From contig JAFZQU010000004.1 in the NCBI GenBank assembly GCA_017620255.1, positions 1-64,000 on the forward strand: a stretch of DNA of 64,000 nt, written 5' to 3'. A program made the position numbers and the translations under genes. The DNA comes from Lachnospiraceae bacterium (GTDB taxonomy: Bacteria; Bacillota; Clostridia; Lachnospirales; Lachnospiraceae). Below are positions 5,153 through 49,581 of the stretch, one piece after another. Each line of letters begins with the position of its first letter. Position 1 is the first letter of the stretch. The notes beneath the pieces were generated by a model that had not been told where the DNA came from, ran no database searches, and worked only from the letters and a program-made list of their open reading frames with translations.

Positions 5153-5198
5153 ACTCCTGTTTTAGGGATCGTGCGGAAATCCCCGTGTATTCTGTTGA

Positions 5199-5954: not shown

Positions 5955-5960
5955 TTCCAG

Positions 5961-28461: not shown

Positions 28462-29016
28462 CTACAGGAGCCGCCGCAACTCACAGTTGCCGCACAGATT
28501 GTCCCAGAAACGGGCAAGCTCTGTCCCTTCCGTCCTGCAGATCATGGCGGTATTGACAGCGCCGTGGGCTACGATCAGCACGTCTTTTCCTTCCTGCATC
28601 GCAGGGATCGCAACATGATCCAGAAAATCTCCGGCGCGTGCAAACAGATCATCAAAACTCTCTGCCCCTTCCACGGCACGGTAGTGTACGGGATCCTTAA
28701 AAAGCGGATACAGCGGGGATTCCGGGTGCTCAAAAACGTGTTCCGATCCTTCGCAGATCCCGAAACTCATCTCCTTAAGACGCGCATCCGTATAGATCGG
28801 AACGCCCCGTCCCTCCAGAAAGATCTCTGCAGTCTCCAGAGCGCGGCATAGCGGGGATGCATAACATATATCAAAATGAAGCGCTGCGTATTTTTCGCGC
28901 GCTTCCCTTGCCATCTGCCGGCCTGCTGCATTTAGCGGCACATCCGTCCGCCCCTGGATCTTATAACAGGCATTCCAGTCGGTCTGCCCGTGTCTCATCA
29001 GATATATCATAGCCAT
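28462..29016 (-). CDS. histidine phosphatase family protein (phosphoglycerate mutase-like)
   Basis: A 184-residue branch of the histidine phosphatase superfamily. The catalytic RHG motif is YLMRHGQTDWN at residues 5-15, and the second conserved His is in VLIVAHGAVN near 147-156. The acid segment CYASPLCRALETAEIF is typical. Substrate unknown; CobC-like or broad phosphatases share this pattern. It overlaps the end of the upstream hybrid kinase gene; a second ATG at 29010 would give an ATGA overlap and is an equally good start. Confidence 0.86.
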   Translation of the reverse strand: MAMIYLMRHGQTDWNACYKIQGRTDVPLNAAGRQMAREAREKYAALHFDICYASPLCRALETAEIFLEGRGVPIYTDARLKEMSFGICEGSEHVFEHPESPLYPLFKDPVHYRAVEGAESFDDLFARAGDFLDHVAIPAMQEGKDVLIVAHGAVNTAMICRTEGTELARFWDNLCGNCELRRLL

Positions 29017-31283
29017 TGATCGAGTTTTTCCTGTAACTGTGCCAGTTTGACCGGCTTACAGATATAATCGTTCATGCCGTTTTCAAGAAACATTCTTTCC
29101 GCACCTTTGACCGCGTTGGCCGTGCAGGCAATGATAGCCATGTCCCGGACCCAGGGCGCATCCAGAGCGCGGATCTTTTCCGTGGCCTCGATCCCGTCCA
29201 TGTCAGGCATCATATGGTCCATCAGGATCAGGTCATATGCTTTCTTTTGCACCATTTCGATCGCATCCGGTCCGTTCAGGGCAGTATCCGCGCTGATCCC
29301 GAACGATCTGAGCATGGCGGATAAAACCTTGATATTCACGGAATTATCATCCACGATGAGCACAGCGGCGCCGCTGTGCGGCCCTTTCTTCTGCTCATCT
29401 GGATTATCTTCTTTTTCGTGCGCAAATGCGCCCTTGCCTGCGCGGATCGCGTCTGCAGCGGCAGCGACCGTAGTCTCCGCATTTCCATACAGCACAAACG
29501 GCACATTCTTTTGCAGATGGATCTCGTGGCGTTCCTGATCGGAGAGCGGCTTTTCGCTCTCGATCTTCTGCGGCAGGATACAGTAGAAGGTCGAGCCCTT
29601 TCCGTATTCACTCTCCACACGATAGGTACCGTTCATCCGTTTGATCAGGTGACCGGAGATCGCAAGCCCCAGGCCCGTACCCTGAATGTTACGGTTATTG
29701 TTCAGATCCAGGCGGCTGAATACGCTGAACAGACGGCCGATATCTTCCTGTTTGATCCCGCGGCCGCTGTCCGAAACAGCGAGTTTCAAAAGCATCTCAC
29801 TGCCAAGCCTCTCCCAGTCCACATCCAGCCGGATAAATCCCTTGTCCGTGTATTTGACGGCGTTTGAGAGGAAATTCACCAGGATCTGGCGGATCCGTCC
29901 GTCATCCCCGTTTAAGCGCGAAGGGATCGTCGGATCGATATTGATGATAAAATCAAGGTCTTTGTCTCCCAGACGGATATTTACGATGTTGATGACCGTG
30001 TTCAGCAGTTCCTTCACATCATAGGAGACCGGCAGGATGTCGACTTTTCCGGATTCCGCTTTGGAAAAATCAAGCACATCACTGATGATATCAAGCAGCA
30101 TGTGTCCGGAACTTAAGATCTGCGGCAGGTATTCCCTGCTGGCATCCAGCGTATCCTCTTTCTGCGCCAGTTCCGCAAGACCGAGGATGGCATTTAACGG
30201 CGTACGCATCTCATGCGACATGTTGGCTAAGAAGAAGGTCTTCGCCTCGCTGGCTTCTTCTGCGGCCTTTTTCAGCCGTTCCAGCTCCCGTGCATTGTTT
30301 TCCAGTTCCGTGACATCCGCCAGGACCAGTAGATATCCCAGAAGGGTTTTACGCTTCAGGGGATAGTAATACGTCGTATAATGCCTGTCACCGATCTGTA
30401 TACGTTCCTGCGATTCCTGCGCGGAAATGATCTTTGGCGCATAAGAAAAGATCGTACCGGTTTCCATATCCCCAAGTTCCGGAAAGATCTCTTTCGCCCT
30501 GTCATTGGAATCCTGATAACGGTAAGACACATCCGTCACGATCAGTCCCGCGAACGTGCGGTAGAAAAATTCCGCATAGGCAAGTTCCGCCGGATCCGAC
30601 GTTTTCCCGGCCGTCTTCACGATCGCGATGATCCCGATCACTAACAGTATGATCGCGGAGATCGGTTCGTATCCTTCGAATCCGATCGCGATCGAGAAGA
30701 TCATCGCAAGCAGCGTCAGCCCTGCTGCCGCCAATATGCCGGTAAACGCTTTCCTGCGCTTCCTTGAATTCGTCTGAAGGATCACTTTTGCCGCAATGAT
30801 ACAGCAAAGCAGCGACAGGGCCGCAAGATGGGCCATGAACAGATAGAAGAGGAAGGTTCCCTTCTCCACAAGATGCGGGAACAGGCCCTCCTGCGTAAAA
30901 GAAAGCTCTTTGAAATACAGGCGGTGATATCTGGAAGTCAGCATCAGAAACAGGGTTATCGTTTCATACAGAAAGATACCCTTCCAGACAGCCGACGGAA
31001 CCTTCAGGGCCTGTGTATATTTATCCAGATAGACCGCGAACATGAAGGCAACGTAAGCAAGCCCGCAATATTGCAGGCAGAGTGCATCAAAAGCCATATC
31101 CTGGTTGGTCGAGAGCATCTCAGTCAGATAGCCGAGACCGTACGCTACCACGGCAACGGACGCGCCAAGCAGAAACTTGGCTTCCGGGCGCAGCATGAAA
31201 CCGAACAGGGAATATAGTCCGTATATACCGACAACCAGTGCCACGATCTGAATTGTGATCAGTACATGATAGGTCGTGATCAT
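29007..31283 (-). CDS. hybrid sensor histidine kinase with N-terminal 7TM domain
   Basis: A 758-residue sensor. The first about 225 residues form seven hydrophobic segments like the histidine-kinase 7TM sensor module. A PAS-like region follows (about 235-325), then HisKA with His357 in FLANMSHEMRTPLNA, a HATPase domain (NFLSNAVKYTDKG, DSGRGI, GTGLGLAI) and a receiver with Asp689 in LILMDHMMPDMDG. No output domain. No ribosome site precedes the ATG, and an extended -10 (TGATAAAAT) ends nine bases before it. The only co-transcribed neighbour is the phosphatase. Confidence 0.92.
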   Translation of the reverse strand: MITTYHVLITIQIVALVVGIYGLYSLFGFMLRPEAKFLLGASVAVVAYGLGYLTEMLSTNQDMAFDALCLQYCGLAYVAFMFAVYLDKYTQALKVPSAVWKGIFLYETITLFLMLTSRYHRLYFKELSFTQEGLFPHLVEKGTFLFYLFMAHLAALSLLCCIIAAKVILQTNSRKRRKAFTGILAAAGLTLLAMIFSIAIGFEGYEPISAIILLVIGIIAIVKTAGKTSDPAELAYAEFFYRTFAGLIVTDVSYRYQDSNDRAKEIFPELGDMETGTIFSYAPKIISAQESQERIQIGDRHYTTYYYPLKRKTLLGYLLVLADVTELENNARELERLKKAAEEASEAKTFFLANMSHEMRTPLNAILGLAELAQKEDTLDASREYLPQILSSGHMLLDIISDVLDFSKAESGKVDILPVSYDVKELLNTVINIVNIRLGDKDLDFIINIDPTIPSRLNGDDGRIRQILVNFLSNAVKYTDKGFIRLDVDWERLGSEMLLKLAVSDSGRGIKQEDIGRLFSVFSRLDLNNNRNIQGTGLGLAISGHLIKRMNGTYRVESEYGKGSTFYCILPQKIESEKPLSDQERHEIHLQKNVPFVLYGNAETTVAAAADAIRAGKGAFAHEKEDNPDEQKKGPHSGAAVLIVDDNSVNIKVLSAMLRSFGISADTALNGPDAIEMVQKKAYDLILMDHMMPDMDGIEATEKIRALDAPWVRDMAIIACTANAVKGAERMFLENGMNDYICKPVKLAQLQEKLDQWL

Positions 31284-34077: not shown

Positions 34078-34800
34078 TTATTTTGCCTTGCTCTTTCCGA
34101 GGTACGCCTCCTTGACGCGTTCGTCGGATAACAGCTGTTCTCCTTCGCCTTCCATGATGATGTTCCCCGTCTCGATCACATATCCGTAATGGCAGGTCTT
34201 TAAGGCCATGTTTGCGTTCTGCTCGATCAGCAGCACCGTAATGCCGTTGTCATTGATCGTGCGGATGATGCTGAAGATATCACGCACCACGAGCGGAGCC
34301 AGACCCAGGGAAGGCTCATCCATCATGATCAGCTTCGGACGGCTCATCAGTGCCCTGCCGACCGCCAGCATCTGCTGTTCGCCGCCGGACAGCGTACCGG
34401 CAAGCTGCCAGTGACGCTCACTCAGTCTCGGGAACAGGCGGTATACATAGGCAAGGTCCTCATCGTAATTGTCTTTGCGCAGATAGGCGCCCATCTTCAG
34501 GTTTTCGAGCACCGTCAGGTTCGGGAACACACGTCTGCCTTCCGGTACGAGCGTGATCCCCCGTGCCACGATCGCATCCGGGGACAGTCCCAGGATATTG
34601 TCGCCTTCAAACAGGATCTCGCCGCTCTCGGGTTTCACGATCCCCGAAACGGAACGCAGGATCGTGGATTTTCCGGCACCGTTCGCGCCGATCAGCGTGA
34701 CGATCTTTCCTTTTTTGACATCCATGGATATGCCGTTGACGGCCTGGATGCCGCCAAAGCGTACGTTTAAGGATTTGATCTGCAAAATCACATCACTCAT
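34078..34800 (-). CDS. livF: branched-chain amino acid ABC transporter ATP-binding protein LivF
   Basis: One of two ATPases of the LIV importer, 240 residues. Walker A is GANGAGKST, the ABC signature LSGGEQQMLAVGRAL, and Walker B LIMMDEPSLGLAP. The C-terminal end of the family is present. ATG 34800 is used because GGGGGTGA precedes it; a GTG six bases earlier is possible. It overlaps the end of livG by eight bases. Last gene of the livJHMGF operon. Confidence 0.93.
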   Translation of the reverse strand: MSDVILQIKSLNVRFGGIQAVNGISMDVKKGKIVTLIGANGAGKSTILRSVSGIVKPESGEILFEGDNILGLSPDAIVARGITLVPEGRRVFPNLTVLENLKMGAYLRKDNYDEDLAYVYRLFPRLSERHWQLAGTLSGGEQQMLAVGRALMSRPKLIMMDEPSLGLAPLVVRDIFSIIRTINDNGITVLLIEQNANMALKTCHYGYVIETGNIIMEGEGEQLLSDERVKEAYLGKSKAK

Positions 34801-35635
34801 CTTCACTCACCCCCAGATATGCATCGATCACCTTCTGGTTGGACTGGATCTCGGCCGGCACACCTTCCGCGATCTCTTTTCCGAAATCAATGACATAGAT
34901 CCGGTCGGAAATGTCCATGACCAGATTCATGTGGTGCTCGATGAGCAGGATCGTTAAGTTGAACTTCTCTCTGATATAGTGGATGAACTTCGTCAGTTCC
35001 TCCGTCTCCTGCGGATTCATACCGGCTGCAGGCTCGTCAAGGAGCAGCAGTTTCGGATCCGTTGCAAGCGCCCTTGCGATCTCCAGCTTGCGCTGTTTAC
35101 CGTACGGCAGGCCCGTTGCGATCTCGTCCTTGACGTCATAGAGGTCCACGAGTTTTAACAGTTCCTCCGTCTCACGGCGCATTTTAGCTTCTTCTTTGCG
35201 GTTCAGCTTGAGCGTGGCCGTAAAGATATTGGAAGTCCTTCTCAAATGCTTAGCCGTCAGGACATTGTCGAACACCGTCATCGACTTAAAGAGACGGATG
35301 TTCTGGAAGGTCCTGGCCATGCCCAGTTTAGTCAGTTCATCCGGCGTTTTCACGAGGATATGCCTGTACATATCCGCGTTGGCGCCGGCGTAAAGCTTTT
35401 TCATCTTTCCCTGCGGATGATTTTCAATGATCTTTTCTCCCGCAAAGGAAACCTGTCCGTTCGTCGGCTCATAGACGCCCGTAATGGCGTTGAAAGCCGT
35501 TGTTTTGCCGGCACCGTTGGGACCGATCAGGGCAACGATCTCGCCCTCGTTCACGTCCATCGTCAGGTTGTCGACTGCGACCACGCCGCCGAACTGCATG
35601 GTCAGATTTTCTACGTGAAGTACGTTTTTACTCAT
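34793..35635 (-). CDS. livG: branched-chain amino acid ABC transporter ATP-binding protein LivG
   Basis: Second ATPase of the LIV importer, 280 residues. Walker A is GPNGAGKTTAFNAITG, the signature is the LivG-type LPYGKQRKLEIARAL, Walker B LLLLDEPAAGMNP, and the C-terminal LivG extension (NQKVIDAYLG) is present. It overlaps livM by eight bases and livF by eight bases, typical of coupled translation in this operon. Confidence 0.94.
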   Translation of the reverse strand: MSKNVLHVENLTMQFGGVVAVDNLTMDVNEGEIVALIGPNGAGKTTAFNAITGVYEPTNGQVSFAGEKIIENHPQGKMKKLYAGANADMYRHILVKTPDELTKLGMARTFQNIRLFKSMTVFDNVLTAKHLRRTSNIFTATLKLNRKEEAKMRRETEELLKLVDLYDVKDEIATGLPYGKQRKLEIARALATDPKLLLLDEPAAGMNPQETEELTKFIHYIREKFNLTILLIEHHMNLVMDISDRIYVIDFGKEIAEGVPAEIQSNQKVIDAYLGVSEDE

Positions 35636-36716
35636 CTTTTACACCGCCCTTCACGCTTTTTTTCATAAAGAGATTTTTGATGCGGAGGATCCCGTCATAA
35701 ACGGAGATCTCCCGCGTCCCCATGATACCCTGCCTGAAGAACAGCACGATGATCATGATCAGGATCGAGAAAACGACCATTCTGAACCCGGGGCCGAGGA
35801 GCGGGATCTTTGCACCTGCATCCGTATAGGTCTCAAGGTCCAAAAACTTCAGCCACCATTCGGAACTCGCGTAGAAAATGAATGCCGCGATGATCGATCC
35901 GGAGATTGAACCGATGCCGCCGATGACCACGACCAGAAGGATCTGGTACGTCATGGCCGATGTAAAGGATACGCTCGATACGCTGGTATTGCACATCGCC
36001 ATCATCGCTCCCGCGATCCCGCAGAAGAATGAGGAAATGATAAAGGACAGCCGTTTGTGATGCGCCAGGTTGATCCCCATGGCTTCCGCTGCGATCTCAT
36101 CATCGCGGATGGCCTTAAAGGCACGCCCGTACGTCGAGTTGATGATGAGCACGATGATCAGGATACTGATCCCCGAGATCGCCGCATATACGAGGATGTT
36201 CTTCGGTGCGGTGAACATGTTGATCGGATCCGGACCATTCGTTACGGGTCCGAAATTCTGCAGCTGCACAAGACCTCTGACGATCTCCGCAAACCCGAGT
36301 GTTGCAATGGCAAGATAGTCGCTTTTCAGACGCAGCACCGGAAGACCGATCAGGAACGCAAAGAACGCGGCGATGAGGCCTGCCAGGAGCAGTGCCGGAA
36401 CAAGCGGCATCTGGAAACGGATCAGCGAATCCCCGTAATTCCGGAATACGTTCGAGCGCATATCCACGGGAATGGTCAGGATCGCGTATGTATAAGCACC
36501 CAGCAGCATAAAGCCGGCCTGTCCCAGTGAAAAGAGGCCCGTGAACCCGTTTAAGAGGTTCATGGAAACCGCTGCCAAAGCAAAGGTGCAGACTTTCCGC
36601 AATACGGAAAACCACATGGAAGTGGACGGCGCAAGCAGCTCGATCAGTACGAGTGTCAGGATCAGTGCTGCCACAAGGAGAAGGTTGCAGATCGTTCGTT
36701 TATTCTGATTCCACAT
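35628..36716 (-). CDS. livM: branched-chain amino acid ABC transporter permease LivM
   Basis: Channel subunit, 362 residues with about nine to ten transmembrane segments. Family marks are LNGFTGLFSLGQAGFMLLGAY near residue 56 and GIGSISGSIIAAFIFY near 270, with the ATPase-contact EAMGIN loop. ATG 36716 is preferred because GAGGAGGT lies six bases upstream; the frame upstream of it would run into the livH stop. 11 bases separate it from livH. Confidence 0.92.
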   Translation of the reverse strand: MWNQNKRTICNLLLVAALILTLVLIELLAPSTSMWFSVLRKVCTFALAAVSMNLLNGFTGLFSLGQAGFMLLGAYTYAILTIPVDMRSNVFRNYGDSLIRFQMPLVPALLLAGLIAAFFAFLIGLPVLRLKSDYLAIATLGFAEIVRGLVQLQNFGPVTNGPDPINMFTAPKNILVYAAISGISILIIVLIINSTYGRAFKAIRDDEIAAEAMGINLAHHKRLSFIISSFFCGIAGAMMAMCNTSVSSVSFTSAMTYQILLVVVIGGIGSISGSIIAAFIFYASSEWWLKFLDLETYTDAGAKIPLLGPGFRMVVFSILIMIIVLFFRQGIMGTREISVYDGILRIKNLFMKKSVKGGVKDE

Positions 36717-36727
36717 ATCGCACCTCC

Positions 36728-37609
36728 TCACACTTTCTCGGTAGTCTTCTCACCGAAGATACCGGTAGGTTTCACAACCAGAATGATGATCAGCAGTGCG
36801 AACGAGATCACGTCGGAAAAATCAGCCAGGCCGAAGGCCTTCGCCAGACTTTCCACCACGCCGATGATCAGCGCTCCCACGACGGCGCCGGGTACCGATC
36901 CGATCCCGCCGACGACTGCCGCGATGAACGCTTTCAGTCCCGGGTTGGCACCGGACAGATGATTGATCCCCGTATTCTTGGCAAAATACAGAATGGAGCC
37001 CGTTGCGGCAAGGAATGCGCCGATCGCGAATGTGATCGAAATGACGCGGTTGATCTTGATCCCCATCAGCTGCGATGTCTCAAAGTCCTTGGAGACCGCG
37101 CGCATGGACATGCCGAATTTCGTATGATTGATGATCCAGACTAAGATCACCATTAAGACCAGCGCGATGACCGGGGAAAGAAAGACAGTCAGTTTGTCTT
37201 TGACGCCGAAGATCCGGATGCTCTCTCCGATCACGGGGATGTCCGGGAACTGCTTGGACAGACCGCCCGTCACATAGCTCACCAGATTCTGCAGCAGATA
37301 GGAAACACCGATCGCCGAGATCATGACCGACATACGCGGTGCGCTCCGAAGCGGCGAATAGGCGAATTTCTCGATCAGGAACCCGATGAACACGGTTAAA
37401 ACGACCATCAGGAAGATCGCAAGCCAGATCGGCAGCATGGGAAAATCAGCCACTATGTAGATCATCAGGATGCCGGAGACCATGAACAGTTCTCCATGGG
37501 CAAAGTTGATCAGTTTCAGGATGCCGTACACCATGGTATAGCCAATGGCGACAAGGGCAAACTGCCCCCCTGTCGCCAATCCTCTGATCAGGTAAGATAG
37601 AATATTCAT
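36728..37609 (-). CDS. livH: branched-chain amino acid ABC transporter permease LivH
   Basis: Channel subunit, 293 residues, about eight transmembrane segments. Marks are GYTMVYGILKLINFAHGELFM near residue 22, the AVSKDFETSQLMGI coupling loop near 150 and AVVGGIGSVPGAVVGALIIG near 225. The start has AAAGGT upstream. It lies between the binding-protein gene (21 bases) and livM (11 bases). Confidence 0.93.
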   Translation of the reverse strand: MNILSYLIRGLATGGQFALVAIGYTMVYGILKLINFAHGELFMVSGILMIYIVADFPMLPIWLAIFLMVVLTVFIGFLIEKFAYSPLRSAPRMSVMISAIGVSYLLQNLVSYVTGGLSKQFPDIPVIGESIRIFGVKDKLTVFLSPVIALVLMVILVWIINHTKFGMSMRAVSKDFETSQLMGIKINRVISITFAIGAFLAATGSILYFAKNTGINHLSGANPGLKAFIAAVVGGIGSVPGAVVGALIIGVVESLAKAFGLADFSDVISFALLIIILVVKPTGIFGEKTTEKV

Positions 37610-37630: not shown

Positions 37631-38908
37631 TTATTTGGAAGCCGTCTCCCATGCGAACTGGGCCATGACGGAACCCTGGAACGGATCCAGGAAGCAGGTA
37701 CGGAAGTAATAGTTGTGTCCCTCTGTTACGGATGCGTTTGTGCAGGAAACACCGATCGCCGGGATGCCTGCATCCTCAAAGGTCTGTGCAGCCGCGATGG
37801 AAACACCGGAACCGTAGGAACCAAGAGATACCAGAGCACCCTGTCCTACGATGTTGGAAGCAGCCGTTACCGCGTTCTCCTCAAGGGAGCCGTTATCGGA
37901 AACGTAGAGTTCCACTTTGTAGTCTTCGCCGTCGATGGTGATCGTATCATCAAGAGAGTTTGCATAGTAGATGCCGAGTACTTCCTGCTTACCGCCTGCG
38001 GCGTTGTTACCGGAAGTCGGCTCGTAAACGCCGATCACGATCTTTTTGTTTGCGGTATCTAAGGAAACGCCTGTTGCACTGCCGTAATCAACAGCCTTGC
38101 CCTGTGCTGCATTGTTCGGGCTGGTCTGTACTTTTACGAATTCAAAAGCGCCGCTGCCGGCCTTCTTGATGTATGCGCTGTCTTTGATCGCATCGCCGTT
38201 CTGGTCAAACTGGATCTTGCCGGTAACGGCATCGTCAATGCTGGTAGCCCAGAGTGCGTTGGCAACATCGATCGAGGTAAGGCCGGATCCCTTTTCCTCT
38301 GCTGCCGCGCGGATCGCTGTCATGGCAACATTGTATGCATCAAAACCGAGTGCGGATACAGCTGCAACGATATCGTTTCCGCCGTTCATTTCCTTATAAT
38401 CCGCATTGGCGTTCAGCCAGCCTTTGAAACCGGATACGAAATCCTTGGCCGATGTGGAAGAAGAATCGGATTCATCAAAGAATGTGGAGCAGTATACTTC
38501 CAGATCCGTGCCTGCTACCGCATCCAGTATAACGGAAGACTCCCATGTATCGCCTGCCATGATCGGGCATTCGATCCCAAGGTCATCTGCGTTCGCAAGA
38601 AGGTTTGCGGCAACCGTGGTGGAGTTCGGTGCGAAGATCACGTCTGCACGGTTATCCAGTGCCTTCTGCAGATAATCGGAGAAGTTTGTTGTATTGGTCG
38701 GGAAGGTCTCCATAACGACCGTTCCGCCGTTTGCTTCAAACGCTGTTTTAAAGTTGTTGGCAAGACCGAGCGAGTAAGTATCGCCTTTTTCCGCGAGTAC
38801 ATATGCGGTCAGTCCTTCGTTCCCGCCGCCTGCAGCAGCAGCGCCGCAGCCCGCAAGGAGCATCATGGTCATGGCAAGTGCCATCACAACGGAAATTAAC
38901 TTTTTCAT
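37631..38908 (-). CDS. LIV-type amino acid binding lipoprotein, apparently circularly permuted
   Basis: Extracellular solute-binding lipoprotein of the Liv importer, 425 residues. Signal peptide with lipobox LLAGC (Cys21). The order of the two-lobed fold is changed. In LivJ-type proteins a start like KVAVVGAMSGPIA is followed about 140 residues later by the hinge and then a segment like IAIIHDKQQYGEGLA. Here that later segment comes first (TAYVLAEKGDTYSLGLANNF, residues 34-53) and continues to FEFVKVQ (255-261), the usual C-terminus. A linker (262-287) then leads into the usual N-terminus KIVIGVYEPTSGNNAAGGK (289-307), which ends at Lys425 in QFAWETASK. Start ATG 38908 has CAGGAGGGA upstream. 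First gene of the operon. Confidence 0.88.
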   Translation of the reverse strand: MKKLISVVMALAMTMMLLAGCGAAAAGGGNEGLTAYVLAEKGDTYSLGLANNFKTAFEANGGTVVMETFPTNTTNFSDYLQKALDNRADVIFAPNSTTVAANLLANADDLGIECPIMAGDTWESSVILDAVAGTDLEVYCSTFFDESDSSSTSAKDFVSGFKGWLNANADYKEMNGGNDIVAAVSALGFDAYNVAMTAIRAAAEEKGSGLTSIDVANALWATSIDDAVTGKIQFDQNGDAIKDSAYIKKAGSGAFEFVKVQTSPNNAAQGKAVDYGSATGVSLDTANKKIVIGVYEPTSGNNAAGGKQEVLGIYYANSLDDTITIDGEDYKVELYVSDNGSLEENAVTAASNIVGQGALVSLGSYGSGVSIAAAQTFEDAGIPAIGVSCTNASVTEGHNYYFRTCFLDPFQGSVMAQFAWETASK

Positions 38909-40226: not shown

Positions 40227-41375
40227 TCAGGCTTTCAGCCTGAAGATCAGTGCTAAGACGGCAAGGAAGAGACAGCCCGTAAAGAGGATCGCACTTGCCA
40301 GAAGGTGCTGCTTTTTCTCAATGGCAACGATCGCAAAAAACTCCCTGACAAAACCGTTTGGCCAGAAATACCACTTCGTCCTGCTCGCGATCCCTTCTGC
40401 GGTAAGCCCCGCTCTTTTTGCAAGGATGCCGCTTCTGTACATATGATAATTGGTCGTTGCAAAACAGACCTTCGCATCCGGATTCAGTTCCTCAATGATC
40501 TCTTTGGAAAACAGGAAATTCTCGTAGGTGTTCGACGAGCGCTTCTCCGCATGCACTTCCGTGCTCTCCGCCCCGTGTGCGAGCAGGTAAAGTTCCATCG
40601 CGGAGCCTTCGCTCATGATCTCATCACTGCCCTTTCCGCCGCTTGGAATGAATTCCACACGCTTTCCCGTCGCGATCTCCTGGTCCCAGGCGTAACGGAT
40701 CGCACGGTTGGTGCGCGCTTTTATGAGCGGTAAGAGGCCGCCCTTTTTGTCGATGGAACAGCCGAGGATGATAATGAAATCCTTATCGTAACGGGGTTTC
40801 TGCCTGGCCGCCAGAAAAGCCATGACGACCGTCCCCAGGAAAAAGCACTCGAAATAGCACATCATCAGGAGCAGAAACAGGTTCAGATAGGTATGTACCG
40901 CCATGTAGACCGTGTTCCCCATCAGATCCCATTTCCTTAGGACCTGACTCTCCACCAACGTGGACGCCAGATGGATCGCCACGGTGCCGCCGACGATCAT
41001 GATCCCGAGCACGACGCCGAGGATGTTTTTGATGCGCATGCCCTCGTGCCGGATCAGGGCCAGATTACTGATACTGATCGCAAGGCAGATCAGGGTGAAA
41101 ACCGGGATCGCAAACATGGAGAAGCGTTTCGGGAAACGCACGAATTCAATAAAGAGATACCGCAGCGTCAGTTCCTTGGTCTCCAGAAGACAGGATAAAA
41201 GATAAGAGTACAGGGAAAGCATCAGCATGGACAAAAACAGGATCCCTGCAATATAGACCGCATTGCGGTAATAATACAGGGATCTGTGCAGGCTTCTTTG
41301 CAACAGAAACTGCATGAGCACGATCGTTGCAAACAGAAGCGCAAAAAGTATGTTAAAGATCCAGACGACGGTCAA
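40227..41375 (-). CDS. YdcF/SanA-family (DUF218) membrane protein
   Basis: A 382-residue protein. Residues 1-205 hold about five transmembrane segments; residues about 205-340 form the DUF218 domain with IILGCSIDKKGGLLPLIKARTNRA, PSGGKGSDEIMSEGSAM and the end NYHMYRSGILAKRAG. A last hydrophobic segment lies at the C-terminus. Related proteins (ElyC, SanA) are linked to envelope and antibiotic tolerance; the reaction is unknown. Its ATG overlaps the GGDEF-EAL stop codon (ATGA). Confidence 0.86.
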   Translation of the reverse strand: MTVVWIFNILFALLFATIVLMQFLLQRSLHRSLYYYRNAVYIAGILFLSMLMLSLYSYLLSCLLETKELTLRYLFIEFVRFPKRFSMFAIPVFTLICLAISISNLALIRHEGMRIKNILGVVLGIMIVGGTVAIHLASTLVESQVLRKWDLMGNTVYMAVHTYLNLFLLLMMCYFECFFLGTVVMAFLAARQKPRYDKDFIIILGCSIDKKGGLLPLIKARTNRAIRYAWDQEIATGKRVEFIPSGGKGSDEIMSEGSAMELYLLAHGAESTEVHAEKRSSNTYENFLFSKEIIEELNPDAKVCFATTNYHMYRSGILAKRAGLTAEGIASRTKWYFWPNGFVREFFAIVAIEKKQHLLASAILFTGCLFLAVLALIFRLKA

Positions 41376-43036
41376 TGTACTTTCCTCTCCAGCATCGCCA
41401 CGGCGGCTTCGTAGTAGAGCGGTCTGTCCCAGACAAAGCCCTGTACATAGTCACAGTTCTGTTCACGCAGAAGGTCGACCTGCATCTGGGATTCCACGCC
41501 TTCGGAAATGACATCGCAATCCATCAGATGTCCCATGTAGATCACAACGTTGACAAAATCACGGCTCATCTCGCTGGTCTCGATATCATCGATCAGGCTC
41601 TTGTCGATCTTGAGCAGGTTGATCGGCAGTTTGACGAGCTGTGCCAGAGATGTATAGCCGGTACCGAAATCATCCAGTGCGATCTTAACGCCCAGTTTAC
41701 GCAGCTTTCCGATATTCTGGATCGTGATGTTCTCGTTCTCGGCCAGGGAATATTCCGTGATCTCAAGCTCCAGCCTGTTGGCCGGGAAGCCGGTATCTTT
41801 CAGCACCGATGCCACATGCTCTGCAAAATCTTCCCTTGTCATGCTGTTTGCGGAGACATTGACGGAAAGGATGACGTCTTCTCCGTAATTGCTGATATAA
41901 TCCACCATTTCCGTCAGCGCACGGTTTAAGACATAGGTATCGATCTGAATGATCAGATTGGTCTTCTCCGCGACCGGAATAAACTCGGCAGGGCCTGCGC
42001 TCGTGCCATCCGGCAAAAGCGTACGCAGCAGGGTCTCAAACCCGCGCAGCTGTCTGGTCCTGGTATCATATTGCGGCTGATACATCAGATAGAAGTAATC
42101 GCCCGCCAGACATTCCTTGACAAGGGTCTCGAGTTCGTTCTGTTTTAGGATCTCGGAACCCATCTGTTCATCAAAGCAGACCAGTGTATTGGCGCGTTCT
42201 TTCATAGCATGATAAAGCGCAAGATCCGCGTATTTGATCAGGGTCGAAACATCGAGCGCATCCTCAGGGTATCTTGCGGAACCCGCGTAAACGCGCGGAT
42301 AACAGTAAACCGGATATTCGCCCTCCTCGAGTGCGATCTTGCCGCCGAAGCGCTCCTTCATACCGCGCCTGAATGCGTTTAAGTCAAAATCAACATCCGT
42401 TACAAGCGCATATTCGCTGCCGCCGATCTTGCAGACCGTGCCGTAGCCCTTCGTCATCTCAAGCAGTTTTACGCTGACATCCCGCAGCAGCCTGGTTCCC
42501 ATGTCGTGCCCCAAGTTATCATTGATCATGCGGAAATTGTCGATGCGGAAATAGATGACCGTGAACAGGGATCTTGCTGCAATACGCTTCTCGATGGTCT
42601 CTAAGAAACCGCGCATGTTATAGAGTCCCGTCACATAATCGGTCAGGCTCTCCTGCTCCACCAGACGGAACTGTTTGCTGATGATGAAGATCGCAAGGAA
42701 TGCGAGCATTGCATTGATCGCTCCGGGAAGCGGTGCCAGACTCTTCGTGTGCAGGATGCCCACCATATCATATAGCACCGTGAAGATCAGGATACCGTAA
42801 GACAGCCTTGCACCGGCACGGTAACTGATACAGGTCATGATGATGCACACGATGAACATTAAGAGCTGGATCACACCGTTCATACTGAAGACAGGCAGTG
42901 AAACATTGCCCACTCTGAGGGCGGATTCCTGGTTCAGCGTTACGTTACTGATGATCAGTGCGACCAGTATGGTTATATTGAGGATCATGAGTAAAGTGAT
43001 CCACATTGTCTTGTGTGAGATCTTATTCAATCGCAT
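41372..43036 (-). CDS. GGDEF-EAL protein, probable c-di-GMP phosphodiesterase
   Basis: A 554-residue membrane protein. Roughly the first 125 residues are hydrophobic (about five segments). The GGDEF domain has the signature changed to GGSEY near residue 208, so cyclase activity is doubtful. The EAL domain keeps the metal and catalytic residues: GFETLLR (EAL in EXLXR form), NVSANS, LEITE, DDFGTGYTSL, KIDKSL, EGVE and QGF. It should break c-di-GMP. No Shine-Dalgarno; a TATAAT extended -10 ends six bases before the ATG. Divergent from the HD-GYP gene. Confidence 0.91.
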   Translation of the reverse strand: MRLNKISHKTMWITLLMILNITILVALIISNVTLNQESALRVGNVSLPVFSMNGVIQLLMFIVCIIMTCISYRAGARLSYGILIFTVLYDMVGILHTKSLAPLPGAINAMLAFLAIFIISKQFRLVEQESLTDYVTGLYNMRGFLETIEKRIAARSLFTVIYFRIDNFRMINDNLGHDMGTRLLRDVSVKLLEMTKGYGTVCKIGGSEYALVTDVDFDLNAFRRGMKERFGGKIALEEGEYPVYCYPRVYAGSARYPEDALDVSTLIKYADLALYHAMKERANTLVCFDEQMGSEILKQNELETLVKECLAGDYFYLMYQPQYDTRTRQLRGFETLLRTLLPDGTSAGPAEFIPVAEKTNLIIQIDTYVLNRALTEMVDYISNYGEDVILSVNVSANSMTREDFAEHVASVLKDTGFPANRLELEITEYSLAENENITIQNIGKLRKLGVKIALDDFGTGYTSLAQLVKLPINLLKIDKSLIDDIETSEMSRDFVNVVIYMGHLMDCDVISEGVESQMQVDLLREQNCDYVQGFVWDRPLYYEAAVAMLERKVH

Positions 43037-43057: not shown

Positions 43058-43086
43058 TCGACATTTGCGCAAATTTATGATAAAAT
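43058..43086 (+). promoter_or_regulatory. promoter of the HD-GYP gene, start codon at or next to the transcript start
   Basis: TCGACA (43058-43063), 17-base spacer with TG at 43078-43079, TAAAAT (43081-43086). The predicted start, about 43093, is only two bases from ATG 43095, so the AGGAGG at 43088-43093 would lie mostly upstream of the RNA. Confidence 0.55.
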
Positions 43087-43094
43087 CAGGAGGT

Positions 43095-45245
43095 ATGAAA
43101 ATAAGGAAACTATCCCCCCTAATCGAACGCTTTACCGGCAAGCGCTCAGCTGCGATCTGGCTGATCCTTGGCGCGGTTTTACTGAACGTCCTGCTGTCCT
43201 GGCTCGTCTATGATTTTTCCATGCCGCTCTATCTGGATACGGCCGGAACGATCGTCGTGTCCGTCATTGCGGGACCCTTTCCGGGCATCGTCGTGGCGGT
43301 CGCCACCAACGTGCTCTGTTCGCTGTACAACGACAACGCGATCTATTATGCGATCCTGAACGTTCTGATCGCTATTGTCACCTCCGAATTCGTGAGACGC
43401 AAAAAACAGAATGACGTCGGTGCATACGCTCTTTATTTTGCGATCATCGCATTTATCGGCGGTGTCATGGGCGGCGCGATCCAGTGGGGGCTCTTTGGCC
43501 GGCCGCAGTTTTCTTCCATTTCCGAAGCCTCCGATGCTTTCGCCGAGGCGACAGGGATCGCAAAGTTTGCAGGCTTTCTGCTGCTCAATTTCTTTCTGAA
43601 TCTCGTTGATAAGGTCGTTTCCGTCGGAGTTGCCTTTTTGATCTTCGAGGCGCTCCCCCTTTCTTTCCGGGAAGCCGTACGCTCTTTTTCCTGGCATCAG
43701 AATCCTCTGTCAAAAGAAGAAACCGATGCGATGCGCAAGCAGAGTTCCAAAAAACATTCGCTGCAGCACGGGATCGCCCGGATGCTGATCTTCGCAGCCG
43801 TTTCGATGACCCTCGTCATGGGCTGGATCAGCATCTATCTCTATTATCAGAACGCCAGGGAAGAAATGACGCAGACCGCACAGGAAGCTGCTTCTCTCGG
43901 CGCCGAGTTGATCGATCCGTCCCATGTGAACGATTACCTGGAAAAGGGCAGGCGCGCCGAGGGCTATACGGAAACGGAAAAAATGCTCTATGCGATCAGG
44001 GAGAACCTGCCTGCCGTTGCCTATCTTTATGTCGTAAAGATCATGGACGACGGCTGTCACTTCATTTTTGACTTGGAGACCGAAGACACGCCCGCCTGTG
44101 TGCCCGGTGAGATCGTCCTATTCGAAGACGCCTTCCGTCCTTACCTGCCTGCGCTGTTTGCGGGGGACCCGATCGAGCCGGTGGAATCCAACGATGCCAG
44201 CGGCTGGGTGATCACCGTATACCATCCCGTTTACGATCACGCAAGAAACTGCGTCTGTTATGTCGGCGCAGACGTGTTCATGTCTTACCTGACCGATTAT
44301 GTACGCAATTACCTTTTGCGCACTCTTCTGATCTTTTCGGGCTTCTTCCTGCTGATCATCGGTTACGGCCTGTGGATGACCAACTACAGGATCGTTTTTC
44401 CCATTGACAGCATGGCAAGAACAACCAACAGTTTTGTATACGACAGTTCGGATCAGGCAGCGCTCTCCGTCAATATTGACAAGATCAAAAACCTGGCGAT
44501 CCGGACGGACGATGAGATCGAATACCTCTACAAAGCCCTGTATAAGATGACAACAGATACAGCGGACCAGATCCGGGATATCAGGCACCATGCAAAGGCC
44601 ATCACACAGATGCAGGACGGCTTGATCATCACCATGGCGGATATGGTGGAGAACAGGGATTCCGACACAGGCGCGCATGTGCAGAAGACGGCCGCCTATG
44701 TCCGGATCATTCTGGAAGGGCTTAAGAAAAAGGGCTATTACAGGTCCAAACTGACCGATAAATACTTCTCTGACGTGATCACCTCCGCACCGCTCCATGA
44801 CGTGGGTAAGATCAGTATCTCGGATACGATCCTGAACAAACCCGGCAGGCTGACGGATGAGGAATTCGAGATCATGAAGGGGCACGCTGCAGCGGGCAAG
44901 CAGCTCATGGAGAAAGTGATCGATACCGTGCAGGGCGAAAACTATCTGAAAGAAGCCAGGAATATGGCCGGATACCATCACGAGAAATGGGACGGGACCG
45001 GATATCCGGAAGGGCTCTACGGGGAGGTCATCCCGCTTTCCGCCAGGATCATGGCTGTTGCGGATGTTTTTGACGCACTGACTTCCAAGCGCGTCTATAA
45101 AGATGCGATGCCGCTCGAACAGGCCCTGCAGATCCTGGAAGACGGGGCCGGGACCCATTTCGACCCCAAATGTGTGGAAGTTTTTATGGACTCCATCGAA
45201 GAGATCAAGGTGATCCTGAAAAAATACAACCGGGACAGGCACTGA
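43095..45245 (+). CDS. membrane sensor with HD-GYP phosphodiesterase domain
   Basis: A 716-residue protein. Residues about 12-180 form five or six transmembrane segments (GPFPGIVVAVATNVLCSLYN). A further segment near 228-245 is followed by a Cache-like extracellular domain (about 250-410), another segment near 412-432 and a HAMP-like region. The HD-GYP domain is intact: LHDVGKISISD and HHEKWDGTGYPEG near residues 560-645. It would hydrolyse c-di-GMP or a related dinucleotide. An earlier ATG at 43077 is in frame but has no ribosome site. Divergent from the GGDEF-EAL gene, 50 bases before the hybrid kinase. Confidence 0.9.
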   Translation: MKIRKLSPLIERFTGKRSAAIWLILGAVLLNVLLSWLVYDFSMPLYLDTAGTIVVSVIAGPFPGIVVAVATNVLCSLYNDNAIYYAILNVLIAIVTSEFVRRKKQNDVGAYALYFAIIAFIGGVMGGAIQWGLFGRPQFSSISEASDAFAEATGIAKFAGFLLLNFFLNLVDKVVSVGVAFLIFEALPLSFREAVRSFSWHQNPLSKEETDAMRKQSSKKHSLQHGIARMLIFAAVSMTLVMGWISIYLYYQNAREEMTQTAQEAASLGAELIDPSHVNDYLEKGRRAEGYTETEKMLYAIRENLPAVAYLYVVKIMDDGCHFIFDLETEDTPACVPGEIVLFEDAFRPYLPALFAGDPIEPVESNDASGWVITVYHPVYDHARNCVCYVGADVFMSYLTDYVRNYLLRTLLIFSGFFLLIIGYGLWMTNYRIVFPIDSMARTTNSFVYDSSDQAALSVNIDKIKNLAIRTDDEIEYLYKALYKMTTDTADQIRDIRHHAKAITQMQDGLIITMADMVENRDSDTGAHVQKTAAYVRIILEGLKKKGYYRSKLTDKYFSDVITSAPLHDVGKISISDTILNKPGRLTDEEFEIMKGHAAAGKQLMEKVIDTVQGENYLKEARNMAGYHHEKWDGTGYPEGLYGEVIPLSARIMAVADVFDALTSKRVYKDAMPLEQALQILEDGAGTHFDPKCVEVFMDSIEEIKVILKKYNRDRH

Positions 45246-45294: not shown

Positions 45295-48200
45295 ATGATA
45301 AAGAAACATCTGTACCGCCATCTTGCGGTTCTTTTTGCCGTCTGTGTACTGTCTGTCACTGCAGGGACTGCGGCATATGCACTTGCCACGGAAGACATTG
45401 CGGAGACCGGGAAGACGGATGCCGCTGCGAACGGCGGCGGCTATGCCGTCACCGGACAGCTTGAAAATGCCGGCTACGCAACAAAACTCTACAACGCTTC
45501 CAACGGACTGCCGACCTCCGATGCCAACTGTATCTGTGCGACACACGACGGCTATATCTGGATCGGCGGATACAGCGGGATCATCCGCTATGACGGAACC
45601 TCTTTTGAACGAATGCCCTCAACCGGCGGCCTGACAAACGGCAAGGCTCTGTTTGAAGACAGTGATAACCGGCTGTTTGTCGGTACGAACGATAACGGGA
45701 TCGTTGTACTTGATCCGGACGGAACCTCCATACACTATACCTACAAGGACGGACTGCCTTCTTCGACGATCCGTGCCTTCACGCAGGGACAGAACGGCCT
45801 CGTCTTCGCAGGAAGCACCGACGGCGTGGTCTATATCGACAGCGATAATATCCTGCATAATCTGGCTGATTCGCAGTTGGACAAAACCTATATCATCCGG
45901 CTGACTTCCGATTCAAACGGCGTTGTCTACGGAAATACCAGAAGCGGGGACGCATTCTCGATCGAAGGTACAAAAGTCACCGCCTATTATCACGGCGGTG
46001 ATCTGGGGATCGGGGACATCACCACGATCTACGCGGATCCCGGCAATCCCGGCTGCGTATATCTCGGCACGGATTCCGAAAAGATCTACTACGGCAGTTT
46101 TCGAAAGAACCTGTCAGACCTCAGGGAGATCGATGTGTCGCCGATCCACAATGTCAACCTGATCGGGTATGCGAGCGGCCGTATCTTTGTCGTATCCGAC
46201 ACTTCCATCGGATATCTTGACGGGGACGGGAAACTCTGTCTGCTCGATAACATTCCCTTAAACAGCGGTATCGAGGCCATGACGGAGGACTATCAGGGGA
46301 ATCTCTGGTTCACCTCTTCGAGACAGGGCGTCATGAAGATCGTCACCGACAACTTCCAGGATCTGACGGAGGCGGGCGGCCTGACTCCGGAAGTTGTCAA
46401 CAGCACCTGCCTGCATGACGGCCAGCTCTATATCGGTACCGACAAAGGACTGCAGATCCTTGACAGCCGCAACCATCCCGTGGAAAATGCCCTGCAGGAA
46501 TATATAGGCCAGGCACGTATCCGCTGTCTGATGGAAGATGGGGAACGCAACCTCTGGGTTTCCACCTATACGGAAGGTCTGGGACTGGTCTGTTATACAC
46601 CGGATGGCCGGATCATTCCGTACACGGAAGAAAACGGTATGCCGAGCAATGCGATCCGCTGTACGGTCGAAGCGGACGACCACTCCGTTCTCGTCTGCTC
46701 AAACGGCGGCCTTACGATCATCCGTGACGGAGAGATCGCGCGGATCGTCGGCGAATACTCCGGGATCAGCAATACCGTCTTTCTGACCGTGGCAGAAGGC
46801 CCGGACGGACGGATCTATGTCGGGACGGACGGCGACGGCATCTACATCATAGACGGTAACCGCATCGAGAAGATCGGCCGCGACGACGGGCTTACCAGTG
46901 ACGTGATCCTGCGCCTTCGAAGAGATAAGCAGCACGGCGTTCTCTGGATCGTCACCTCCAATTCCATTGAATATATGAAGGACGGCACGATCACCGCCGT
47001 GGAGAATTTCCCTTATACCAATAACTACGACCTGTTTCCGGATGATGCCGACAACATCTGGGTGCTTGCTTCTTACGGTGTCTACTGTGTGAAAGCACAG
47101 GATATGCTCGATAACGGGGTCTTCGAATACAGTCTCTATGACACCGCAAACGGGCTTCCGTCCGTACCGACCGGAAACGCGTTCAGCGAACTCGACCACA
47201 ACGGCAATCTCTATATAGCCGGCAGGAGCGGTGTCAGCAAAGTCAATATCCATCACTTTTTCACCGAACAGAGCCGCATCCGCACCGGCATCAAATCCAT
47301 CTTCTGCGGAGAGGAACAGATCCTGCCGGATCCGGACGGGACCTACACGCTTCCTGCAGAATCCGGCCGTATCCAGATCAACATCGGCGTCCTGAATTAC
47401 ATGCTCTCCAACCCTCTCGTCCGTGCTTATCTGGAGGGGGATGAGAACGGCGGTATCACTATGCCGCAGAACGCCTTAACGGCTCTGGAATATACCGGCC
47501 TTTCCTACGGAACCTATAACCTGCACATTCAGATCCTCGATCCTTCCGCACCGGATAAGGTCGTGCAGGATGAGGTGTTTAAGATCGTTAAAAAACCGCG
47601 GATCCTGGAGCTCTTTGTTGTCAGGATCCTGATGATCGCAGCCGGGCTCGCACTGGCCGGTCTGATCGTCTGGTGGGTCATGCGCAGTACCATCATCCGC
47701 AAACAGTACGACCAGATCCGCTCTGCCAAAGAAGAAGCGGAACGTGCCAACAGCGCCAAGTCCCGGTTCCTCGCGAACGTTTCCCATGAGATCCGTACCC
47801 CGATCAATACGATCATGGGTATGGATGAGATGATCCTGAGGGAAGATGCGACCGGCGTACCGAAGCCTTACTTCATGTCCGTCGTCAACTATGCGCTCGA
47901 TATCCGGCGCGCATCCGAGTCCCTGCTCACGCTGATCAACGATATCCTGGATCTTTCCAAGATCGAATCCGGTAAGATGCATCTGGTGGAACAGGAATAC
48001 GATATCGCGGAACTGCTGCGCACGATCGTTGTGATGATCCGTGTGCGCAGCGAACAGAAAGAACTGACCTTCGACCTGGATATTGATGAAAATATCCCGA
48101 GACGTCTCTACGGCGATATGGGCAAGATCAAACAGATCGTACTGAACCTTCTGACCAACGCCGTCAAGTACACGGACCGCGGCGGTTTCCGGCTGAAACT

Positions 48201-49581
48201 CTCCCTTTTGTCAAGGGACGAAGACACCTGCGAACTGCGCTTTTCCGTCAAAGACACCGGCATCGGAATCAAGCCCGAAGACATGGAAAAGCTGTTTTCC
48301 GCTTTTGAACGGCTGGACGAAGAGAAGAACTCCGCTGTGCAGGGTACCGGCCTCGGCCTGAACTTATCCCGCCAGTTCGTCAACCTGATGGGCGCCGATC
48401 TGACCTGCGAGAGTGTGTACGGGGAAGGGTCTGATTTTATCTTCACGATCAGACAGAGGATCGTGGATCCCACGCCGATGGGCGTCTTTGACGAAGAAGG
48501 CGGGGACCAGATGAACGGCCCGTATGTGCCTCAGTTCTGCGCACCCGATGCGGAGATCCTGGTCGTCGATGATGAGCCGATGAACCTGTCCGTGATCAAA
48601 GGTCTCCTAAGTGCCACCAAGATGCTGATCGCAACGGCATCCAGCGGCGAAGAATGTCTGGAGAAGATCCGCTACGGCAGTTACAACGTTGTACTGCTCG
48701 ACCATATGATGCCCGGCATGGACGGCCTGGAAACGATCGCCAAGATCCGCGAGGATCATCCGGATCTGCCCGTCTTTGCCCTGACGGCCAATGCCGCCAC
48801 CAACGGGGAAGAATTCTATAAGGAACACGGTTTTACGGGCTACCTCGCCAAGCCGATCGATACCTATACGCTGGAAAAAGCCATCAAACCCTGCCTGCCG
48901 CCGGAGATCATCATGGAACCGGCCAAGGAAGGCGGCGGAAAGATCTCACAGGAACTGCCGGAAGACATGAACTGGATCCGGGACGTCAAAGAGATCGATA
49001 TGCAAAGCGGGATCCGTTACAGCGGCGGCATCGACAACTTTGTCAATTCCCTGCACATGTTCGCGGACACGCTCGATGACAATGCGGCGGTGATCGAGAA
49101 CGCCTATGCGCAGGATGATATCAAGCTCTACACGATCAAAGTCCATGCACTGAAAACTTCCGCCAGGATCATCGGCGCCATGTCTCTCTCCGAGGCGGCG
49201 CTCACAATGGAAGATGCCGGCAAGAAGGAAGACATGACTTACATCCGCGCACATGCGGACGAGCTGCTTGCATCCTACAGGGCTTTCAAAGAGATCCTCT
49301 CACCCTTACATGCGGCAGAGCAGACAGAGGCAGGATCCCGCGATCCGGTTCCCGAAACGGAACTTGCGGACGCCTATACGGCGCTTCGCGAAGTGATCCC
49401 GCTGATGGATTATGATTCCGTGGAAATGATTTTGACGCAGCTTGATAACTACAGCCTGCCCGAAAAGGATGCCCTGATCATGGACAAACTGAAGAAGGCC
49501 ATGAAGACGTTTGACTGGGAAACGATGGAAGAGATCATAAAAGAAGAAGGAACGGACGAAGGGGGAACGTTAAATGAATGA
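45295..49581 (+). CDS. giant propeller hybrid histidine kinase with receiver and Hpt domains
   Basis: A 1428-residue one-protein phosphorelay. N-terminal signal or anchor (about 7-26). Outside: two-component-regulator beta-propeller repeats (about 50-650, with GYIWIGGYSGIIRYD, NRLFVGTNDNGIVVLD) and a Y_Y_Y-type domain near 690-765. Transmembrane segment about 772-795. HisKA with His831 in FLANVSHEIRTPINT, HATPase (NLLTNAVKYTDRGG, DTGIGI, GTGLGLNL), receiver with Asp1136 in VVLLDHMMPGMDG, and an Hpt domain with His1284 in KVHALKTSARI. Such proteins often sense polysaccharide fragments; here the signal is unknown. Start has GGAGG. Overlaps the next gene by eight bases. Confidence 0.93.
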   Translation: MIKKHLYRHLAVLFAVCVLSVTAGTAAYALATEDIAETGKTDAAANGGGYAVTGQLENAGYATKLYNASNGLPTSDANCICATHDGYIWIGGYSGIIRYDGTSFERMPSTGGLTNGKALFEDSDNRLFVGTNDNGIVVLDPDGTSIHYTYKDGLPSSTIRAFTQGQNGLVFAGSTDGVVYIDSDNILHNLADSQLDKTYIIRLTSDSNGVVYGNTRSGDAFSIEGTKVTAYYHGGDLGIGDITTIYADPGNPGCVYLGTDSEKIYYGSFRKNLSDLREIDVSPIHNVNLIGYASGRIFVVSDTSIGYLDGDGKLCLLDNIPLNSGIEAMTEDYQGNLWFTSSRQGVMKIVTDNFQDLTEAGGLTPEVVNSTCLHDGQLYIGTDKGLQILDSRNHPVENALQEYIGQARIRCLMEDGERNLWVSTYTEGLGLVCYTPDGRIIPYTEENGMPSNAIRCTVEADDHSVLVCSNGGLTIIRDGEIARIVGEYSGISNTVFLTVAEGPDGRIYVGTDGDGIYIIDGNRIEKIGRDDGLTSDVILRLRRDKQHGVLWIVTSNSIEYMKDGTITAVENFPYTNNYDLFPDDADNIWVLASYGVYCVKAQDMLDNGVFEYSLYDTANGLPSVPTGNAFSELDHNGNLYIAGRSGVSKVNIHHFFTEQSRIRTGIKSIFCGEEQILPDPDGTYTLPAESGRIQINIGVLNYMLSNPLVRAYLEGDENGGITMPQNALTALEYTGLSYGTYNLHIQILDPSAPDKVVQDEVFKIVKKPRILELFVVRILMIAAGLALAGLIVWWVMRSTIIRKQYDQIRSAKEEAERANSAKSRFLANVSHEIRTPINTIMGMDEMILREDATGVPKPYFMSVVNYALDIRRASESLLTLINDILDLSKIESGKMHLVEQEYDIAELLRTIVVMIRVRSEQKELTFDLDIDENIPRRLYGDMGKIKQIVLNLLTNAVKYTDRGGFRLKLSLLSRDEDTCELRFSVKDTGIGIKPEDMEKLFSAFERLDEEKNSAVQGTGLGLNLSRQFVNLMGADLTCESVYGEGSDFIFTIRQRIVDPTPMGVFDEEGGDQMNGPYVPQFCAPDAEILVVDDEPMNLSVIKGLLSATKMLIATASSGEECLEKIRYGSYNVVLLDHMMPGMDGLETIAKIREDHPDLPVFALTANAATNGEEFYKEHGFTGYLAKPIDTYTLEKAIKPCLPPEIIMEPAKEGGGKISQELPEDMNWIRDVKEIDMQSGIRYSGGIDNFVNSLHMFADTLDDNAAVIENAYAQDDIKLYTIKVHALKTSARIIGAMSLSEAALTMEDAGKKEDMTYIRAHADELLASYRAFKEILSPLHAAEQTEAGSRDPVPETELADAYTALREVIPLMDYDSVEMILTQLDNYSLPEKDALIMDKLKKAMKTFDWETMEEIIKEEGTDEGGTLNE

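Follow-up and report, generated by a model that had tools for sequence, protein, structure and literature searches.

To the best of our knowledge, natural circular permutations of binding proteins have rarely been documented. Tp0684 (MglB-2) of Treponema pallidum is a naturally permuted type I binding lipoprotein for which a type Ic, or cluster Bc, was proposed (PMC4990184); that paper describes a fourth cross-over and an extended linker, relatives among the spirochetes and the Gram-positives of the gut, and a cut in the N-lobe after the third strand, with the first three N-lobe strands moved to the C-terminus. The gene considered here, an ORF on the minus strand at 37631-38908 of the window (i.e., the whole stretch of 64,000 nucleotides of DNA that was analysed), derives from a gut bacterium and encodes a 425-residue lipoprotein of the Peripla_BP_6 or LIV-type binding protein kind. 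It has in common with the canonical LIV/HAAT proteins (e.g., LivJ and LivK of E. coli and TM1135 of T. maritima, 3td9) the family to which both of its pieces belong, the operon partners, the predicted fold and several conserved cleft residues, but it differs from them in the reversed order of the pieces, the termini inside the C-lobe, a new linker and a lipid anchor that enters the C-lobe. Like TpMglB-2, it is a permuted type I binding lipoprotein; its own linker would make a fourth crossover. Unlike TpMglB-2, which belongs to a sugar-binding, MglB-like family, it is a LIV-family protein whose cut separates helix 1 from strand 1 of the C-lobe, and the piece that was moved also comprises the crossover and the first C-lobe helix. 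With respect to type Ic/cluster Bc it therefore has the permutation, but neither the N-lobe cut nor the sequence kinship with MglB-like proteins. An earlier note on this DNA had stated that no permuted member of the family was described. For the LIV family this holds for the literature matches listed (open-licence PubMed Central text), none of which concerns a permuted LIV-family protein by its title; searches directed at the LIV family itself gave no paper. Among type I proteins as a whole, a permuted one is known in a sugar family (PMC4990184).

Gene and operon

The protein starts with MKKLISVV...LLAGC, preceded by an AGGAGG ribosome-binding site just 5' of the ATG, and ends with QFAWETASK. 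Its parts and the genes that follow it are:

38846..38908, minus strand: signal peptide and lipobox, residues 1-21 (LAGC; Cys21 is the presumed lipidated residue), from the sequence
38813..38845, minus strand: short Ala/Gly tether, residues 22-32, ahead of the first strand, from the sequence and the AlphaFold2 model
38123..38812, minus strand: segment A, residues 33-262, the canonical C-terminal two thirds (HMM 137-359; Peripla_BP_6 127-334)
38051..38122, minus strand: new linker, residues 263-286 (24 residues), connecting the former C- and N-termini and flanked by the two profile stretches
37634..38050, minus strand: segment B, residues 287-425, the canonical N-terminal third (HMM 1-134; LivJ alignment; DSSP)
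37631..37633, minus strand: stop codon right after QFAWETASK, from the sequence
36728..37609, minus strand: livH permease (Pfam PF02653; 81-97% identical in other permuted-type operons)
35628..36731, minus strand: livM permease (Pfam PF02653; compared with other permuted-type operons)
34793..35635, minus strand: livG ATPase (Pfam PF00005 and PF12399; compared with other permuted-type operons)
34078..34806, minus strand: livF ATPase (Pfam PF00005; compared with other permuted-type operons)

After Cys21 and the tether the chain enters TAYVLAEKGDTYS, with TAYVLAEKGD from residue 34; the AlphaFold2 model has a pLDDT <50 at residues 1-29 and its first strand starts at residue 34. Segment A proceeds from the first strand of the C-lobe through the second part of the N-lobe to the canonical C-terminus, with FEFVKVQ at residues 255-261. 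The linker, which is partly conserved in sequence across the four complete permuted proteins discussed below, then gives way to KKIVIGVYEPTSG, which runs to the end of the protein, with KIVIGVYEP from residue 289. Segment B thus contains the canonical N-terminus, the first part of the N-lobe, the first crossover (approximately at 407/408) and the first C-lobe helix (408-424). The earlier note had read the same succession (lipobox, a segment of the post-crossover type, FEFVKVQ, linker, family N-terminus and the QFAWETASK end), and the ORF, the order and the coordinates were all recovered; the displaced N-terminal part, which it put at approximately 37634-38047, is here placed at 37634-38050 (residues 287-425). 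Its description of both pieces as complete is also borne out, with about two HMM positions missing at the cut, as is that of the gene heading an intact livHMGF operon, since livH, livM, livG and livF each match their own Pfam family. The permuted gene heads such an operon in all four complete cases.

Only one other Peripla_BP_6 match (E up to 0.001) was obtained in the genome of the window; it is distant, canonical in order and located on contig C35. At approximately 251128-252159 of this contig (L133, L136) there is another LIV operon, which comprises a binding protein of canonical order and a livHMGF set of its own; of the latter, livH and livF are 44 and 54% identical, respectively, to those of the window.

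Order of the two pieces

The Pfam profile Peripla_BP_6 matches the native protein in two stretches with 93.2 bits (cut-off 31.7), the better of which aligns residues 23-246 with profile positions 127-334, and in a six-frame search positions 127-334 are likewise encountered first and positions 2-133 second in the reading order. When the protein is rejoined in the canonical order, a single stretch covering positions 2-334 is obtained with 109.4 bits. Our own HMM, built from 49 dereplicated canonical relatives out of 108 found, matches the native mature protein in two stretches, 137-359 and then 1-134 (446.4 bits), and the rejoined protein in a single one, 1-359 (452.0 bits); a canonical control gave one stretch with 567.6 bits and, when deliberately swapped, two stretches with 541.2 bits. 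Rotation of the protein every 20 residues resulted with this HMM in a split match or a lower score, the exceptions being cuts within the linker or at the start of the mature protein, with which the result of the rejoined or the native order was reproduced. The best match among solved structures, 3td9, increased from 100.4 bits (native) to 115.0 bits (rejoined), and the E-value for E. coli LivJ (1z15) improved from 3.9e-4 to 9.6e-8. The canonical order thus aligns better with our own HMM, Pfam, 3td9 and 1z15, in agreement with the permutation proposed in the earlier note. Both segments share 57-63% identity with their five closest canonical relatives (L010, L011, L012, L006, and L007) and the family match is therefore far beyond chance. 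By score the protein belongs to Peripla_BP_6, although it does not possess the canonical linear order (first part of the N-lobe, C-lobe, second part of the N-lobe); judged by its sequence, it is a circularly permuted variant homologous to Peripla_BP_6 and not a canonical member. The sequence matches with solved structures comprised 16 PDB entries at E up to 1e-3, by name amino-acid/LIV-type or general extracellular ligand-binding proteins, and none of these 16 is by name a sugar-binding protein or MglB-2. In three of the canonical relatives (L010, at 4938-6110, L011, and L012) the signal peptide seems, by eye, to be without a lipobox cysteine, which the permuted proteins do have.

Cut site and predicted fold

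In the alignment with LivJ, K425 meets P138 and L33 meets Q139, which places the cut at LivJ 138/139, and D408 meets D121. The domains of LIVBP are given as residues 1-120 with 249-328 and residues 121-248 with 329-344 in the relevant section of PMC13103812; with this 120/121 boundary, the alignment indicates that the first crossover is intact near 407/408 and that the cut lies approximately 18 residues past it. The secondary structure (DSSP) is in line with this: in the model of the permuted protein helix 408-424 closes the chain and strand 34-40 opens it, and in the canonical control L010 the helix 143-157 and the strand 162-168 adjoin. The join was previously thought to fall at the hinge, i.e., at the first crossover, but the LivJ alignment and DSSP place the cut within the C-lobe, where its first helix is normally followed by its first strand. 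By this alignment the three original crossovers are retained. As the N- and C-termini of LivJ sit in opposite domains, according to the section of PMC6983066 that deals with them, a linker joining the old termini is expected to cross between the lobes, and linker 263-286 should therefore add a fourth inter-lobe connection, four instead of three.

AlphaFold2 predicted the native order with a mean pLDDT of 90.9 and a pTM of 0.87, compared to 89.3 and 0.85, respectively, for the canonical control L010, and the linker has means of 91-98 in blocks of 10 residues. When the element lists are compared by eye and the signal-peptide helix is left out, 26 of the 28 helices and strands of L010 recur in the rotated order, and the two elements without a counterpart in the permuted model are four residues long each. 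The alignment supplied for the model contained 76 rows (the four permuted proteins, 36 segment A pieces, and 36 segment B pieces), 16 of the 92 rows of a previous alignment, in which the segment A fragments were incorrectly aligned towards their end, having been left out. Because the canonical pieces were entered as separate rows, it was mostly the four permuted rows that informed the contacts between the pieces. Foldseek, a sequential aligner, matched the canonical control with 3td9 over 372 columns (TMq 0.75, ranked first) and the permuted model over 240 columns (TMq 0.44, ranked second); the shorter match is as expected if such an aligner follows only one of the pieces. The suggestion that the fold could close up unchanged has thus gained support, since the native order is predicted to be family-like, with a type I two-lobed fold that is predicted to be rebuilt from the two pieces. 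For the permuted model, the first-ranked and most of the best 50 Foldseek rows are full-length chains of glutamate receptors with an rmsd of approximately 19-29; these were set aside as relatives since the alignments spread over several domains.

Conservation, selection and putative ligand site

When columns that are conserved in 95% or more of the 49 canonical relatives are taken as near-invariant, there are 67 of them; 60 of these are retained by every one of the four permuted proteins, and 61 by that of the window. In a leave-one-out control the median canonical relative keeps 98.5% and the lowest 82%, and the permuted clade is, therefore, more changed than a typical member. Five of the near-invariant positions have changed alike in all four permuted proteins (44 D to T, 75 D to N, 106 Q to N, 353 L to I, and 392 P to A), perhaps in connection with the new topology or with another ligand; with such positions changed, the ligand or the dynamics may differ.

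The ratio dN/dS, from Nei-Gojobori counts with our own script, is 0.067 between L003 and L004 for residues 33-425, with 0.062 for segment A, 0.053 for segment B, and 0.186 for the 24 codons of the linker. For the protein of the window it is 0.031 with L003 (dS 1.9), 0.038 with L004 (dS 1.5), and 0.077 with L005 at a dS of 2.2 (segment B 0.133). The values in the four comparisons with an estimable dS thus range from 0.03 to 0.08, several of them at high dS, and the other values for L005 are mostly saturated. Judged by these ratios, both pieces are under purifying selection, and the reading frame is open in all four complete permuted genes.

LivJ hydrogen-bonds its ligand through S79, T102, Y202, and E226, according to the pertinent section of PMC13103812. 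In our alignment S79 corresponds to S367, T102 to T390, Y150 to Y45, and E226 to D120. Since S367 and T390 belong to segment B and Y45 and D120 to segment A, the putative cleft would be built from both pieces. Y202 corresponds to S96, but a serine is also found at this position in 43 of the 49 canonical relatives, and the subgroup as a whole may therefore have a ligand other than that of LivJ. The ligand of the permuted protein is probably amino-acid-like.

Distribution, origin and possible transfer

The same permuted order was encountered in three further complete genes from separate assemblies, and the carriers are largely metagenome-assembled genomes:

L003: water buffalo rumen MAG RGIG7959 (G018), complete, permuted order
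L004: MAG RUI166 (G014), complete, permuted order
L005: horse faeces MAG (G846), complete, permuted order

In their best segments these proteins are approximately 87% (L003), 87% (L004), and 73% (L005) identical to that of the window (range 73-88%). In a fifth genome, G031, the gene is split by contig ends, but both of its ends show the permuted order: the start comprises a signal peptide followed by LTAYVLAEKGD, and the end QFAWETASK, the stop and livH. The permuted order is thus conserved among related genomes. The loci retrieved contain 125 distinct full-length relatives, a set gathered by similarity and not at random; four of these are permuted and 121 canonical, and three further entries are partial, two of them representing the same G031 fragment. 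The full permuted gene occurs in three of the 37 genomes of the genus (search at E up to 1e-55). In samples of 397 genomes of the family, 391 of the class, and 398 of the phylum, with at most four candidates scored per genome, no match of permuted length other than the window's own was present among the matches listed (E up to 1e-50, 1e-50, and 1e-30, respectively). The canonical locus L052 carries two canonical-order LIV binding-protein genes close together on one contig (4905-6161 and 9932-11146), the second of which is much more diverged.

Phylogenetic trees were based on loci with a complete operon, leaving out 17 loci that were duplicate or partial. All four complete permuted proteins group together in a single clade (support 1.0, 62 rows), and so do the livHMGF genes of the permuted operons, G031 included (support 1.0, 63 rows). 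In separate trees, segments A and B fall in the same 16-member clade (support 0.999 and 0.97, respectively), which favours one parent gene. We judge the permutation to be functional and of single origin. The textbook route to circular permutation is a tandem duplication in frame with subsequent trimming at both ends, and we assume that it was followed here, although no intermediate of this route was seen.

Alternative origins of the unusual order carry little weight. The genome of the window is a draft in 48 contigs and the G031 gene is broken at contig ends, which might suggest that assembly or binning had put together the reads of a canonical gene in a false order. Three separate assemblies, however, carry the same order with a different sequence (73-88%) and a similar linker, livH follows the permuted gene in each of them, and the only other Peripla_BP_6 match in the window's genome is the distant, canonical one mentioned above, so that we attach practically no probability to such an artefact. 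That halves of two different parent genes were fused, instead of one gene being permuted, we consider very unlikely. Segment B is closer than segment A to canonical relatives in the 20 rows listed, and L118-L121 stand beside the permuted clade in the B tree (0.819) but not in the A tree; however, the higher identity of B may simply mark the more conserved part, and A and B do share the 16-member clade. A chimera of two distant parents was rejected, since the separate trees agree on this clade.

The five operon genes of the window are all approximately 80% identical to those of L005. RpoB, in contrast, is only 63.7% identical between the two genomes, similar to the 64.1% with G676, which belongs to another family of the class, whereas it is 86-96% identical within the genus (G850, where the longest frame gave no match, and G017, where RpoB is in pieces, are not part of this comparison). 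This difference points to transfer of the whole permuted operon between distantly related Clostridia, old shared ancestry with many losses being less likely. The G+C content of the operon, 53% in the window and 39% in L005, matches that of each host and any transfer must, therefore, be old. In G846, RpoB is on a different contig from the operon, but the G+C content of the operon contig is 37-40% in all stretches sampled, and this uniformly low value makes mis-binning less likely. The genes that flank the operon in the window are present around the G031 fragments as well, but were not found in the 19.0 kb (G018) and 15.3 kb (G014) around the operon. The neighbours of the operon seem to be different in G018 and G014 (L124, L125) from those in the window and G031 (L126/L127), all of one genus.

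Proposed function and implications

We are highly confident that the gene encodes the working binding lipoprotein of a LIV-type (HAAT) amino-acid importer with a chain that was circularly permuted once in evolution. The order of the pieces, its conservation, the selection, the operon and the predicted fold are what the analysis demonstrates; the fourth crossover, the ligand class, the transport and the route of origin are what we infer. In such a protein the old termini would be joined by the ordered 24-residue linker, resulting in a fourth connection between the lobes. The new termini would have arisen where the first helix of the C-lobe meets its first strand, and the lipid-anchored end would consequently enter this lobe rather than the N-lobe. 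Together, both pieces would rebuild the two-lobed fold, with ligand contacts in the cleft from each of them, and the protein would capture an amino acid or a similar ligand outside the membrane and deliver it to LivHM, with LivGF supplying the energy. A single parent gene is the most likely source of the permutation, which could have come about by the duplication and trimming considered above, and the permuted gene may then have spread or been kept with the whole operon.

It might be argued from the substitutions at near-invariant positions that the rearranged gene is decaying or non-functional and merely carried along by the operon. The dN/dS values of 0.03-0.08 with both pieces constrained, the open frame in four out of four complete genes, the 60 out of 67 conserved columns kept and the confident AlphaFold2 prediction render this extremely improbable. 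Somewhat less improbable, but still unlikely, is that the protein is folded and functional without being the capture protein of this importer, either as a sensor or scavenger of another ligand or as a domain-swapped dimer in which segment A of one chain pairs with segment B of another. Some conserved positions have indeed changed, the two pieces are connected by the linker alone and the AlphaFold model is that of a monomer. However, the gene is the first of a co-inherited livHMGF operon, the trees of the binding protein and of LivHMGF each give one permuted clade, and the linker is modelled as ordered. Capture of the ligand for LivHMGF is our preferred reading.

More tentatively, and on balance doubtfully, the protein may represent a second, independent type I permutation in the lobe opposite to that affected in MglB-2, with the moved anchor and the fourth strand being adaptive (in opening, closing or docking to LivHM) and the operon having been passed between distant Clostridia. 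The permuted gene is a natural experiment in protein rewiring, and together with its canonical close relatives (approximately 57-63% identity, same operon partners) it offers a clean comparison, with which it could be asked whether hinge closure, ligand affinity, anchor position and permease docking depend on the order of the chain. With its termini in the C-lobe, the protein also offers itself as a natural scaffold on which sensors could be designed. Domain searches that depend on order split such permuted proteins and under-score them.

With regard to the remainder of the window, no Rfam families were detected in it at the gathering score. By eye, the ORFs at 29007-31283, 41372-43036, 43065-45245, and 45295-49581 resemble hybrid histidine kinases, a protein of the GGDEF/EAL type and one that is HD-GYP-like, and the ORFs around the permuted operon seem to form a signalling-rich neighbourhood.
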